Source: Desulfurivibrio alkaliphilus AHT 2 (GTDB lineage Bacteria > Desulfobacterota > Desulfobulbia > Desulfobulbales > Desulfurivibrionaceae). From it: 64,000 nt of DNA. Below are positions 7,609-26,620 of the stretch, in pieces. The notes below the pieces were generated by a model, which was not told the DNA's origin, searched no databases, and saw only the letters and a program-made list of their open reading frames with translations. Location: the NCBI RefSeq assembly GCF_000092205.1, contig NC_014216.1, forward strand, positions 1,865,742 to 1,929,741. The letters run 5' to 3'. The translations under genes and the position numbers were made by a program. Every line of letters starts with the position of its first letter. Within the stretch, counting starts at the first letter, position 1.

Positions 7609-7689
7609 ACTTACCTCCACTCACAAGAAGCTTGCAAGAAACCCATCTTCCGGCTAACTTTGCCAGGTTTGAGAAAAGCAGTCAACCAG

Positions 7690-7850
7690 AGGGTGCTCCC
7701 GGTTACGGCCGGGGGAGAATAGGAAACCGGGTGCAAATCCCGGGCGGTCCCGCCGCTGTAAACGGGGAGCGATCCCGAACAAGGCCACTGTTCAACCGAA
7801 CGGGAAGGCTCGGGAAAGCGCCGATCCGTAAGCCAGAAGGCCTGCCCTTT
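7690..7850 (+). ncRNA. Cobalamin (B12) riboswitch
   Basis: The conserved blocks appear in order: GGTGCTCCCGG (7692), GAATAGG (near 7717), AAATCCCGGGCGGTCCCGCC with CGCTGTAA, CCACTG (7785), GGGAAGG (7802), and the B12 box AGCCAGAAGGCCTGCC (7831-7846). This is the adenosylcobalamin aptamer arrangement. It precedes a ThiC-family gene instead of a transporter, which points to a B12-related role for that gene. The expression platform probably involves the hairpins at 7886-7910 and 7927-7973. Confidence 0.93.
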
Positions 7851-7885
7851 GGTCGAAATCGATTCCCGCGCGTGACGGGACCTTT

Positions 7886-21229: not shown

Positions 21230-21670
21230 CTACTCCTGTTGCCGCTTGGCCAGCAGGAAGGCGGCGCCGCTGGCCGACAGGCCCAGGGCGTCGGCCAGGG
21301 TGACGGCGTCGCTGTCCGGATGACGTTGCAGGAAGGCCGCCGCCTCTTCTTCCAGTTCATCGAGCCAGCTTTCAAAAAGCTTGAGGATGCCGGGCTCGGT
21401 CACCGCCTGCAACTGTTTTGAACGGGCCACTTTATGGACCAGACTCTGACACATGTTGGTTGGATCGACACCTTCGTCCAGGCAGCGGGCCAGTCAGAGG
21501 TTGACCATCCCCACCAGCTTGTCGTCGCCGTTGTCTCCCAGAAAGCGGGCCAGCCATTGCTGGCGTTCCTCGTCATCCAGGTGCCCCAAGGCCCCGCGCA
21601 CCGCCGGCAGCAGGGTCTGCAGAATTTCTTTGGGCTCCAGCTCGTCCAGCAGTTCCGTAAGCTCCCGCAT
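21230..21670 (-). CDS. Candidate new selenoprotein (146 aa, in-frame UGA at codon 59)
   Basis: The frame starts at ATG 21670, nine nt after AGGAG, and runs to TAG at 21230. It is broken only by TGA at 21494-21496, after residues DDKLVGMVNL. Beyond it the frame continues as a normal-looking helical, acidic protein (LARCLDEGVDPTNMCQSL..., SWLDELEEEAAAFL). Reading UGA as selenocysteine gives Sec59 with Cys63 (U-x3-C). A hairpin with loop AGGUG begins 14 nt after the UGA. The stop lies within the Shine-Dalgarno region of the next gene, as expected if the whole frame is translated. I do not recognise the family. A nonsense mutation remains possible but is less likely given two other UGA genes within 2.3 kb. 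Confidence 0.72.
21461..21496 (-). promoter_or_regulatory. Candidate bacterial SECIS element, small protein
   Basis: After UGA (21494-21496), TGGA-CGA pairs with TCG-A-TCCA with one bulged A. The apical loop is AGGTG, 21 nt after the UGA. GGU in a loop at this distance fits bacterial SECIS requirements. Confidence 0.6.
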
Positions 21671-21682
21671 ATATCAAGTCTC

Positions 21683-22027
21683 CTAGAAGGATGTGCGTCG
21701 GGCCAGCAAGTCGCCGGTTAGGGAATTCAGCTCATCCAGCAGCCCCTCCAGGCGGGGGTCGGCCAGGCGGCAGTAAACAAAAGGCCCGCGCCGCTCGACA
21801 CTGACCAGCAACGCCCGCCGCAGCTCTTTCAAATGGTGCGACACCAGGGGCTGGGAAATCCCCAGTTCCTCCACCAGTTTGGAGACCGGCTTTTCGGTGC
21901 CGACCAGGGCGCGCAGAATCCGCAAGCGGTTCTCGTCGGCCAGCCCCTTGAGCAACACCACCAGGTCCGCCGGGGTAACCGTTGCGGCCCCATCGCCGGG
22001 GGAATGATTTGAATTGCCGTTTTTCAC
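21683..22027 (-). CDS. ArsR-family transcriptional regulator
   Basis: A 114-aa winged-helix regulator. The DNA-binding helix-turn-helix reads KLVEELGISQPLVSHHLKELRRA, in its usual place, followed by the wing VSVERRGPFVYCRL. The ELCVCDL metal-binding motif of ArsR/SmtB is absent, so arsenic-type metal sensing through that site is unlikely. It is the first gene of an apparent operon with the small UGA-containing protein (13-nt gap, Shine-Dalgarno overlapping its stop) and the Gdt1-type exporter. It presumably regulates that operon. Its upstream region holds palindromic repeat copy 3. Confidence 0.88.
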   Translation of the reverse strand: MKNGNSNHSPGDGAATVTPADLVVLLKGLADENRLRILRALVGTEKPVSKLVEELGISQPLVSHHLKELRRALLVSVERRGPFVYCRLADPRLEGLLDELNSLTGDLLARRTSF

Positions 22028-22168: not shown

Positions 22169-22312
22169 GTTCACCAGGGGTACTAACTTACCAGTCTAAC
22201 GTGCCGTAATCGTTCAGCAGTGCCGCAGATTCGGGCGATCAGCCAGGCGCCGCGTACACTGGTACTCAAGCCTGGCTGATCGCCCGAAGGTGCGGTGCTG
22301 CTGAACGATTAC
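22169..22312 (-). repeat. Dispersed palindromic repeat, copy 3 (flank on left)
   Basis: The 107-bp palindrome 22206-22312 has outer arms GTAATCGTTCAGCAG and CTGCTGAACGATTAC, a TG/TG mismatch, and a perfect 19-bp inner stem starting TTCGGGCGATCAGCC. Its apex is GTACACTGGTAC. The flank 22169-22205 begins GTTCACCAGGGGTACTAAC. The right arm ends eight bases before the stop codon of the UGA-containing membrane protein. Confidence 0.9.
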
Positions 22313-22319
22313 CTAAAAA

Positions 22320-23426
22320 CTATGTTTGGCGGTACTTGAGCAGCACCAGGCCGTAAACCATGGCCATCAGCACGATGGAAAGATAGTTGGCCACCAGCAG
22401 CAGCTGATGGGCAAAGTAGGTGCCGTAGACGTATCCTCCCAGGACCTGGGAGCCGACCAGGGCTCAGACTATCCCCCACTGGGCCGGGGAGTATTTCTGC
22501 CGGCCGAACTTGCGGAAATAATCCGCAAGCAAATACAACCCGAACACAGCCCAGGCCACGGCGGCGGCGTAAGCGAAGTTGAGCACTAGAAACGAAGCCG
22601 GTTCGGCGGCAAACCCGAAATGGTTTTGCAGGTAGGCCATAATCCGAAACAGGCTGATACCGAAAAGGCAGAGGATGGGAATAACCAGAAAAAAGGCGGG
22701 CTGGATGGGATCGCCCGGCAACCGTTGGGCCTTGAGCTGGCCGTAGAGCAACACCACGATTTTCAACAGAAAGATAAAAATACCGGCCCCGATGGTAAAA
22801 AAGGCGGCAAAGGCAGCGGCCGCCGCCACCGCCGGGTCGGTGGCGATGGCGGCAATACCGCTGCCGGTAAGGCTTACCAGGCCGAAGGCAAAGATATCCA
22901 GCAACCAGGCAAAATTAAGCTTGCTCGGCTCCACCGGTTGGGTCAGCCAGATTTTCAGCACCTTGGCTTCAAACCCCAGCAGGGCCAGCCAAAGCAGAGC
23001 GAAGAAAAAAAGCGACGGCAGCATCAGCCCCTGCAGGGTGGCCCCCATGTTCGGCACAAAAAAGGCCAGCGGCCCCCAGACCACGTTGGCAGTCATGGCC
23101 AGCGAGGCGATGGGGGAAAAGATGGCGATATGGACTTTGGGGTCGTTGATAAAGGCGCTGAACTGCTCACGCTGGGCCATCATCCCGGCCAGCCCTTTAA
23201 GATAAAACAGGGTCAGTAGCAGGTGGATGACCACAAACAGCAGCATCACCCCCACCAGCGGGCCGTAGAAAAAGTTTTCCACGGCACTGAGCTGTTCCCA
23301 CGGCATGGCCGCCATGGTAATCAGCCCCTCGCCGTGCGGCACGGCAAATTGCAACAGCACGAAGGGCATCAACGCCGCCCCGCCGGCGGCCACGGAAATC
23401 TGGAACTGCAAGGGAGAAAACTTCAT
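22320..23426 (-). CDS. Membrane selenoprotein candidate (368 aa, Sec321), TsoY-like
   Basis: A polytopic membrane protein with about nine to ten hydrophobic helices. The frame from ATG 23426 (AAGGAAA upstream) meets TGA at 22464-22466 after KYSPAQWGIV, then continues for 47 more residues as a further membrane helix (LLLVANYLSIVLMAMVYGLV) ending KYRQT at TAG. Read as selenocysteine, this is Sec321. A perfect 5-bp stem UCCCA/UGGGA with loop GGUCC begins 13 nt after the UGA. It starts 11 nt after the DsrE-type selenoprotein gene, so the two form an operon. I recall the database name TsoY for Sec membrane proteins paired with DsrE proteins, but could not check it. Function is unknown; a thiol/sulfur redox role is inferred. 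Confidence 0.8.
22437..22466 (-). promoter_or_regulatory. Candidate bacterial SECIS element, membrane selenoprotein
   Basis: After UGA, TCCCA pairs with TGGGA around loop GGTCC, the loop starting 18 nt downstream. It resembles the GGUCU loop of the E. coli fdhF SECIS. Confidence 0.75.
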
Positions 23427-23437
23427 CGCTTTTCCTT

Positions 23438-23758
23438 TTAGAAGGTCAGGACTTTTTCACTTTCGGCAACCATTTGGTAAAGGTCGGTCATCATGCCCAA
23501 AGGACAGGAGGCTGATCCCGCCAGACCGCGGGATTTGATGCAGGTGCCTCAGACCAGGAAGTTGCCGCCCAAATTGTCGAATTCCGCCAACTGGCCGGAG
23601 ATATCGAACTGCTCACTGCTGATCTGTTCATACTCGACCCCCCGGCCCAGCATGAACATATTGACTTCCTTGCCTTGTTTCAGGCTGGCATTGGCCAGCC
23701 GGGCGGCGTTGAACACCGTTTCCGGGTCGTTGCTGGAAATAACGAACAACCAACTCAT
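23438..23758 (-). CDS. DsrE-family selenoprotein (106 aa, Sec70)
   Basis: A small DsrE-like sulfur-transfer protein. The start ATG 23758 follows GGAGG. The N-terminus WLFVISSNDPETVFNAARLA and MFMLGRGVE are DsrE fold elements. TGA at 23549-23551 is codon 70; reading through gives UGTCIKSRG followed by SCPLGMMTDLYQMV and a stop at 23438. In related DsrE proteins this position is a cysteine (CGTC), as I recall, so the change to Sec is conservative and would create a U-x2-C redox pair (Sec70/Cys73). The SECIS hairpin is the clearest of the three. It is the first gene of a pair with the membrane selenoprotein. Confidence 0.88.
23516..23551 (-). promoter_or_regulatory. Bacterial SECIS element in the DsrE gene
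   Basis: After UGA, TCCCGC pairs with GCGGGA (6 bp, perfect). The loop is GGTCTG, starting 22 nt downstream. GGUCU in the loop matches the known E. coli fdhF SECIS loop. Confidence 0.85.
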
Positions 23759-23957: not shown

Positions 23958-25079
23958 TTAATAGCCTCCGGCCAAGGGTGTCCGCGCCACTTCCACACCA
24001 CGATCCCGCACCAGCGGCAGGCGGGGGTTATTGCCCCAGATAATCCAACTGTCGTGATACACGGCCGGGTCGCTGAAGCCCAACAGGCGCAGAACGAAGT
24101 AGGACATGGAAGCCCGGTTGGCGATGTAGCAGTAAACGATGGTTCGCCGGTGGCGGTCCAAGTCGCCGTACATCGCGTCCAGTTCGGCAATGGGCTTGAG
24201 CCGCAGGCTTTCAAAATCGGCAAACTGCTGCCAGTGGGGCACGTTTGCTATGGTGTGGGGAATCCGGCCGGTGCGGATTACCGAATCGTAAAGAAAATGT
24301 CCCGGCGGGGCCGGCTGGGCGCCGGAGTGCTCCACATCCACCCGCACGTCAACCAGTTGCGGCAATTCAAACTGGTGCGGATTGACCCCGATATCCTGCA
24401 AATAGGATGGGTTGAAGCGGGCCAGCCGCAACACCTCGGCCTCGTGGGCGATCACTTGCGGCTGCAAGCGGGCCCGGAAGTCGGAAGGCGGCAGCCGGTT
24501 TTCTCCCTGCCCTAACGGCAGCCGGTGCGCCCACCAGTTTTCGATCCCGCCGTCCATTACCCGGACATCCTCATGCCCCAGGTATTCCAGGATGACAAAG
24601 GGAACAAAAGTGTAGCCCGGCAGGGTGTCTTCCAGGTCGCTGTAGAGAATTACGGTATGTTCACGGGTTACCCCGGCGGCGGCGAAAACCTGCTCCAGTT
24701 CCGCCACCGGCCGCGGCTCCAAGTGTTCGATCAACTTGCCCTGTTTGGGGTCGATATCTTGATCACCGTAAAAGAGAATATAGCGGTCCTCGCGCAACAT
24801 CTTGTGCCCCCGGTCGCCCAGGTGAATGGCGCCGGGCACATGCCCTTCAAGGTATGATTCCCGGTCCCGAAGGTCGATGATCAGCCAGTGCTCCCGGTTT
24901 TCCCACACCTCCAGGGGGGTGACCAGCAGATGGGGGTTGGCGCCGGGAGGAACAGATCCCCCGGCCCCGGCCGAGCCGGCGCAGAGCAGCACCAGCAGCA
25001 CGAAAAACGGCAGAGAAACCAATCCGGTCGCCAGCCAGCGACCACCTCTGCTTTTGGTAACAGTCGTAATTGTTTTCAT
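23958..25079 (-). CDS. Exported double-domain rhodanese-like protein
   Basis: A 373-aa sulfurtransferase-type protein. The start ATG 25079 follows GGAGG. An N-terminal signal or anchor (about residues 15-40, WLATGLVSLPFFVLLVLLCA) implies a periplasmic or membrane-bound location. Two rhodanese domains follow. In the first the active-site loop reads ILYSDLEDTLP without Cys, so it is probably inactive. The second has IVYCYIANRAS with a catalytic Cys. Rhodaneses transfer sulfane sulfur. The next genes downstream encode a DsrE and a membrane selenoprotein, so a sulfur-relay function is plausible but inferred. Confidence 0.87.
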   Translation of the reverse strand: MKTITTVTKSRGGRWLATGLVSLPFFVLLVLLCAGSAGAGGSVPPGANPHLLVTPLEVWENREHWLIIDLRDRESYLEGHVPGAIHLGDRGHKMLREDRYILFYGDQDIDPKQGKLIEHLEPRPVAELEQVFAAAGVTREHTVILYSDLEDTLPGYTFVPFVILEYLGHEDVRVMDGGIENWWAHRLPLGQGENRLPPSDFRARLQPQVIAHEAEVLRLARFNPSYLQDIGVNPHQFELPQLVDVRVDVEHSGAQPAPPGHFLYDSVIRTGRIPHTIANVPHWQQFADFESLRLKPIAELDAMYGDLDRHRRTIVYCYIANRASMSYFVLRLLGFSDPAVYHDSWIIWGNNPRLPLVRDRGVEVARTPLAGGY

Positions 25080-25234
25080 GGCCCACCTCCCTGTCTTGTT
25101 GGTTTGTCTTGCCATGCGGTCTTCGAGGCTTTTTGCGAACATGCCGCAACCCGGAGGTCGCATTACAGACCATCGGCAGCCCCTGAAACCTGCCCCACAA
25201 TTGGCGAGGGGCGGCCCCCCGTGCCGCCGATTGA

Positions 25235-25268
25235 ATGTATAAACGATCATACATATCAACAATGATAT
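25235..25268 (-). promoter_or_regulatory. Operator-like palindromes upstream of the rhodanese gene
   Basis: ATGTAT-N8-ATACAT (25235-25254) and ATATCA-ACAA-TGATAT (25253-25268) overlap. The region includes the 21-bp motif shared with 23902-23922. It lies between the rhodanese gene (minus) and the padR gene (plus), so PadR is a candidate binder, unproven. Confidence 0.5.
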
Positions 25269-25816: not shown

Positions 25817-26620
25817 ATGCTTTCCCACCTGATCATTGCCGTAGCCGCCCTGGGCGCCTCCACCTTGACCCTCTATTCCGGCTTTGGCCTGGGCACCTTG
25901 CTGCTGCCGGTCTTTGCCCTCTTTTACCCGGTGGAAACGGCGGTGGCGGCCACCGCCGTGGTGCATCTGGCCAACAATATCTTTAAAATCGGACTGGTGG
26001 GCAAGATGGCCGACCGTTCCTTGGTGCTGGGCTTCGGGCTGCCGGCCCTGCTGGCCGCCTTTGCCGGCGCCGCCCTGCTGGGGCTGGTGGCGGGGCTGGG
26101 CACCGTTACCAGCTACCAGCTTGGCGCCCTCGAAGCCACGGTGACCCCCATCAAGCTGCTGATGGGGCTTTTGATTCTGGCCTTTTCCCTGTTCGAGCTG
26201 CTGCCGGGCCTGCGGCAAATCCGCTTCGATCGCCGTCACCTGACCATCGGTGGTCTGCTTTCCGGCTTTTTCGGCGGCCTTTCCGGCCACCAGGGAGCGC
26301 TGCGCTCGGCCTTTCTGGTCAAGACCGGGGTGGACCGGGAGGCCTTTGTCGGCACCAACGCGGTGATCGCCTTCATGGTGGATGTGGCCCGGCTGCTGAC
26401 CTACGGCACCATCTTTGTGCTGGCCGGCCGCGCCGCCACCGACATGGTGGCCTGGACCCCGGCCGACGGCTCGCTGGTGTTCACCGGGATTGCCGCCGCC
26501 TTTATCGGCGCGGTGGTGGGCAAACGGTTGCTGCCCAAGGTTACCATGGCCACCATCCGCACCCTGACCGGCACCCTGCTGGTGCTGGTTGCCCTGGGCC
26601 TGATTTCCGGTTTAATATAG
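25817..26620 (+). CDS. TauE/SafE family membrane permease
   Basis: A 267-aa protein with about eight hydrophobic segments. It begins MLSHLIIAVAALGASTLTLYSGFGLGTLLLPVF, where FGLGT replaces the usual GIGGG loop, and its second half has GGLLSGFFGGLSGHQGALRS. TauE/SafE proteins move sulfite-like or organosulfonate anions. The position next to rhodanese and DsrE genes supports a sulfur anion, but the substrate is inferred. thiD follows at 11 nt, so the two may be co-transcribed. Confidence 0.87.
   Translation: MLSHLIIAVAALGASTLTLYSGFGLGTLLLPVFALFYPVETAVAATAVVHLANNIFKIGLVGKMADRSLVLGFGLPALLAAFAGAALLGLVAGLGTVTSYQLGALEATVTPIKLLMGLLILAFSLFELLPGLRQIRFDRRHLTIGGLLSGFFGGLSGHQGALRSAFLVKTGVDREAFVGTNAVIAFMVDVARLLTYGTIFVLAGRAATDMVAWTPADGSLVFTGIAAAFIGAVVGKRLLPKVTMATIRTLTGTLLVLVALGLISGLI

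Follow-up and report, generated by a model that had tools for sequence, protein, structure and literature searches.

A DsrE-like selenoprotein gene with an in-frame UGA adjoins tsoY in Desulfurivibrio alkaliphilus AHT 2

The window, a 64-kb stretch (64,000 nucleotides) of the Desulfurivibrio alkaliphilus AHT 2 genome, carries a gene for a DsrE/DsrF-like protein (dsrE, Table 1) that is interrupted by a UGA at codon 70. The original prediction gave the correct coordinates for this gene and left the strand unstated; it lies on the minus strand. A GGAGG Shine-Dalgarno sequence is located directly 5' of the ATG. Translation with the UGA taken as a residue yields MSWLFVISS...GGNFLV-U-GTCIKSRGLAGSASCPLG...VLTF, a 106-residue frame with a single UGA in the context NFLV-U-GTC-IKSRG, which includes the U-G-T-C-I-K-S-R motif that had been predicted around codon 70. 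Residues 2-106 of the read-through protein match the Pfam DsrE family (PF02635), scoring 40 bits (cut-off 22.7) at an E-value of 4.9e-10.

Table 1. Coordinates of the dsrE locus and of further features in the window
Feature	Position	Strand	Description
cobalamin riboswitch	7674-7863	+	Rfam RF00174, 134.7 bits
tsoA	21230..21670	-	LULAxC-motif selenoprotein, 146 aa; UGA 21494-21496; NF045695, 187 bits (cut-off 170)
tsoR	21683..22027	-	ArsR/SmtB-type regulator; NF045707, 126 bits (cut-off 115)
palindrome	22206-22312		between tsoY and tsoR
tsoY	22320..23426	-	SLAC1/TDT-like membrane selenoprotein, 368 aa; NF047643, 490.5 bits (cut-off 250)
UGA codon 321 of tsoY	22464..22466	-	Cys in non-Sec homologues (QWGLI-C)
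dsrE	23438..23758	-	DsrE/DsrF-like selenoprotein gene; coding 23441-23758, 106 aa, Sec70 in U70-G-T-C73
stop TAA of dsrE	23438-23440	-	
candidate bacterial SECIS upper hairpin	23515..23534	-	7-bp stem ATCCCGC/GCGGGAU, loop GGUCUG; loop 21 nt past the UGA
UGA codon 70 of dsrE	23549-23551	-	read as selenocysteine; 58 distinct Sec loci; aligns with Cys of Cys homologues
rhodanese-domain protein	23961-25262	-	upstream neighbour of dsrE
TauE/SafE permease	25820-26620	+	near the dsrE locus

The next gene, tsoY, begins 11 nt past the dsrE stop, and the NCBIfam models of TsoR, TsoA and TsoY all score over their cut-offs in the window, as expected of a Tso locus. The tsoY and tsoA genes are two further Sec genes beside dsrE that are absent from the original prediction, and TsoA and TsoY are already named selenoprotein families. 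An in-frame UGA is present in tsoY of every over-cut-off genome of the order (11/11, this one counted), one of which has an extra TAA. Routine gene calling shortens all three adjoining Sec genes (dsrE, tsoY and tsoA) in this stretch, and standard ORF calling leaves fragments of 320 aa for tsoY and 74 aa for tsoA. The 108-bp palindrome between tsoY and tsoR has 43-nt arms that are 91% complementary; the genome carries at least 40 copies of it at 89-100% identity, as for a REP/MITE-like high-copy repeat. Because this element separates tsoY from tsoR, transcription of dsrE-tsoY may be separate from that of tsoR-tsoA. The upstream rhodanese-domain protein and the nearby TauE/SafE permease provide a sulfur-metabolism context. 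The best match to TsoB in the genome reaches only 75 bits against a cut-off of 805, so that the full three-selenoprotein operon with TsoB was not found there; the TsoC model gave no match in this genome, and the control genomes likewise gave none. Elsewhere in the genome, a rhodanese-domain frame with two in-frame UGA codons (L114, G000:C1:236173-236502) resembles the N-terminal part of TsoB and is a possible selenoprotein.

The selenocysteine machinery on which the original prediction depends is encoded in the genome (3,097,763 bases, one contig), where SelA (633 bits, cut-off 268), SelB (351 bits, cut-off 242) and tRNA-Sec (73 bits, cut-off 47) all exceed their curated cut-offs. SelB is also present in 34 of the 36 tested genomes with a Sec-DsrE gene, the other two being multi-contig drafts that are 85% and 94% complete. 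The presence of SelB was discarded as a means of separating Sec-DsrE from Cys-DsrE genomes, as it occurs in 9/10 Cys genomes too.

When 395 genomes of the phylum were searched at the protein level, 87 contained relatives of the DsrE protein, and the better relatives mostly carry exactly one in-frame UGA. The loci scored after retrieval comprise 58 distinct sequences of the Sec type and 13 of the Cys type. The UGA is kept across the phylum down to approximately 30% protein identity. In an alignment of 47 sequences the codon-70 column is invariant, the Sec genes having UGA there and all 10 Cys homologues Cys, which agrees with the expectation that Cys-containing relatives would carry Cys at this position. 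Named Cys homologues, among them those of Thioglobus and SUP05, do carry CGTC, the motif given for related DsrE proteins in the original prediction. The same UGA occurs in a Desulfobulbaceae metagenome contig that is 83% identical, and TsoR- and TsoA-like genes are located downstream there. Past the UGA the coding sequence is under purifying selection, with dN of 0.05-0.21 against dS of 0.56-3.8; the comparison of the window with locus L201 gave dN 0.12 and a saturated dS of 3.8, and that of L201 with L048 gave dN 0.05 and dS 0.56.

The original prediction also described a perfect 6-bp stem with the loop GGUCUG downstream of the UGA; the hairpin and its loop were recovered, with a stem of 7 bp instead of 6. 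The folding energy of this hairpin is unremarkable (z -1.0, with 28/200 shuffles folding equally well) and was set aside as evidence for a SECIS. A loose scan of the 64-kb window for a UGA followed by a G-loop hairpin returned 15 candidates, mostly meaningless, and Rfam analysis of the dsrE locus and the window identified no SECIS or other relevant match. The hairpin is far above chance because it is conserved, not because of its folding energy. The Sec genes fall into two subfamilies. Subfamily 1 (UG[VTS]C, 32 sequences) has an invariant GG opening the loop, 87.6% of stem cells pair, and both sides have changed in 4/7 pairs, while subfamily 2 (25 sequences, UGK[CL] and related) has a three-base loop, GGN, with 90.1% of cells paired and changes on both sides in 7/8 pairs. 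The covariation score was reached by 0/500 shuffles in each subfamily, and sliding the partner columns as a control destroys the pairing and lowers the scores in both. When synonymous codons were shuffled with the protein fixed, 57% of the 58 Sec genes gave p <= 0.05 (median z -2.3) against 0/13 Cys genes (median z +0.2). The covariation and codon-shuffle counts are descriptive, as the sequences are related and not independent. The remaining 43% or so of the Sec homologues are individually no better than their codon shuffles; the hairpin scorer is ungapped and cannot span the stem mismatch or bulge in several of them. On the sequence evidence, a covarying hairpin stands where a bacterial SECIS belongs after UGA70.

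The recurrence of UGA at the Cys column, the covariation of the stem, the purifying selection and the Sec machinery together identify UGA70 as a Sec codon. We consider it nearly certain from these sequence comparisons that dsrE encodes a genuine DsrE/DsrF-like selenoprotein in which Sec70 takes the place of the first Cys of the C-x-x-C active site. That UGA70 is an ordinary stop, in a gene that is decaying or that makes a DsrE truncated to 69 residues, is scarcely credible and was rejected: standard translation does terminate there and hairpins of such strength are common in the GC-rich window, but selection persists beyond the codon, it is precisely UGA that stands at the Cys column throughout the phylum, and the RNA stem covaries.

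Three related genomes (L153, L158 and L155) keep the order TsoR-TsoA-DsrE(Sec)-TsoY. The DsrE adjoining TsoY belongs to the other subfamily in L155 and L156, and at other loci Sec-DsrE lies no more than about 2 kb from TsoA and TsoY is absent (e.g. L048, L052, L055, L057 and L197). The slot between TsoA and TsoY holds NEPxGxxU and HSGNPxU frames, by motif TsoC and TsoX, in L154, L157 and L160, and in L151 a rhodanese/DsbD-like frame that carries two UGA codons is TsoB by motif. One Sec and one Cys DsrE gene are present in tandem in L049 and L188, as if for a hetero-oligomer. TsoY is rare, occurring in 4/395 genomes of the phylum sample, which implies that most Sec-DsrE proteins act without TsoY.

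The AlphaFold2 model of the DsrE protein has a pLDDT of 95.3, and the ten best structural chains match it with VIA Z scores of 13.1-16.3. The top matches all have the DsrE fold: a Sulfolobus DsrE/F-like protein (Z 16.3), YchN (15.8), DsrEFH (13.7) and TusBCD (13.6). No signal sequence was seen in the protein. For DsrE of DsrEFH, PMC13293266 describes a conserved Cys that bears a persulfide (Cys78 in type I, Cys67 in type II).

SelB and Sec-tRNA would read UGA70, and the product would be a cytoplasmic DsrE-fold oligomer, the solved relatives being trimers or hexamers. By analogy with DsrE of DsrEFH, the Sec70 selenolate would pick up sulfane sulfur from a persulfide, a polysulfide or a carrier protein to form an Se-S adduct. 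In subfamily 1, Cys73 would resolve this adduct and free sulfide, or the sulfur would move to an acceptor, and the membrane selenoprotein TsoY would work with DsrE. The resolving Cys is often missing in subfamily 2 (UGKL), so resolution through U-x-x-C would not be general. On chemical grounds the selenothiol would make sulfur transfer "much more reactive", as the original prediction put it. We judge the chances of such a sulfur-relay mechanism to be about even, with sulfur as the probable ligand of Sec70 in preference to selenium or a metalloid.

The presence of TsoY with TsoR suggests a module, inducible and dependent on Sec, by which reduced sulfur or some other thiophilic ligand is handled at the membrane, and the pairing of an ArsR-type regulator with a SLAC1/TDT-like protein fits sulfur species as well as metalloid handling. 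A rival to the sulfur relay is a role of Sec-DsrE in selenium or metalloid handling, in which the ligand of the selenolate would be selenide, As(III), Hg(II) or similar, TsoR would exert control and TsoY would act as an exporter or sensor. The ArsR/SmtB-type nature of TsoR points this way, but ArsR-family proteins also sense sulfur species, and a weak match to the sulfur sensor BigR was obtained here. Among NCBIfam models, that of the selenium-metabolism protein YedF comes nearest to the DsrE protein, though far under its cut-off (18.4 against 110 bits), and subfamily-2 Sec-DsrE genes are found less than 1 kb from selB in two genomes. Many transporter-type selenoproteins are tied to metal or metalloid handling (PMC13188914). 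On the other side, none of the immediately adjoining genes was recognised as ars or mer, and the flanks include the rhodanese-domain protein and the TauE/SafE permease. We regard a selenium or metalloid function as somewhat unlikely. The two Sec-DsrE genes near selB (L092, G261:C5:296728-299681; L098, G052:C1:157019-160035) are convergent with it, and the two genomes belong to a single taxonomic order.

In a different sulfur function, Sec-DsrE would be the missing DsrEFH-type sulfur transferase that feeds DsrC in sulfide oxidation. Desulfurivibrio alkaliphilus oxidises sulfide and does so without a dsrEFH operon (PMC5516251), and the fold of the protein matches DsrE of DsrEFH. No DsrF or DsrH homologue was seen adjoining dsrE, though, and strong expression in D. 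alkaliphilus is reported for another DsrEFH-like complex, that of the YTD cluster (PMC13047784). A type II DsrEFH with active Cys67 has also been reported to transfer sulfur in vitro in cable bacteria (PMC13293266). These observations make a DsrC-feeding role improbable.

Sec-DsrE and TsoY could form a two-selenoprotein module under TsoR and alongside TsoA, in which the selenolate hands sulfur or selenium species to TsoY at the membrane, a selenium-dependent membrane relay that would be distinct from DsrEFH and TusBCD; we offer this arrangement as a speculative one that is rather doubtful at present. The shortened gene calls hide a selenium-dependent module amid sulfur-metabolism genes. DsrE-fold proteins carry sulfur as a Cys persulfide, and in this small protein a U70C swap would show how much a selenolate carrier gains in redox potential and exchange rate. 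The conserved TsoR-TsoA-DsrE-TsoY order provides candidate partners for a family that is listed as uncharacterised in PMC13188914. A conserved linkage of Sec-DsrE to TsoA and TsoY is not stated in the portions of the literature surveyed, though Haft and Tolstoy 2025, the likeliest source, may describe it.

The literature on DsrE-like UxxC selenoproteins dates back to 2005-2006, with reports for the Sargasso Sea (PMC1088965) and Desulfovibrio vulgaris (PMC1794560), and recent lists give them as uncharacterised (PMC9312934, PMC13188914). The family (PF02635, example WP_014524487.1) shares with the protein studied here the Pfam family, the UxxC motif, a SECIS right after the UGA and a deltaproteobacterial spread. 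The present protein exceeds the PF02635 gathering score, has its UGA at the Cys of UxxC, a SECIS-like hairpin and the Sec machinery in its genome, and it belongs to this known selenoprotein family. The copy differs from the published ones, compared by description rather than by alignment, in that it adjoins tsoY and is near tsoA.

The best sequence-detectable relative of solved structure is E. coli YchN (1jx7), with an E-value of 3.1e-7 with a profile and the VIA match extending over all 106 residues. Its Cys pairs with Sec70 in the profile alignment; YchN, whose deposition labels it hypothetical, differs in having Cys rather than Sec and in its 24% identity. DsrE of DsrEFH and its TusBCD counterpart are alike in fold but have 19-21% identity and a Cys where this protein has Sec. 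Membership in DsrEFH or TusBCD was rejected: the fold agrees, the adjacent F/H (C/B) genes are absent, and the neighbours are tsoY downstream and the rhodanese-domain gene upstream. YedF (TIGR03527) has a C-terminal DsrE-like domain with a CGxC motif (PMC5322559) and an N-terminal SirA/TusA-like domain that this 106-aa protein is without; its score and length place the protein outside YedF. The Tso neighbourhood (TsoA, B, C, X and Y) was described by Haft and Tolstoy 2025, as cited in PMC13188914. In such neighbourhoods elsewhere, TsoC- and TsoX-like frames occupy the slot in which the Sec-DsrE gene stands here, and it is this neighbourhood that sets the present member of a known family apart.
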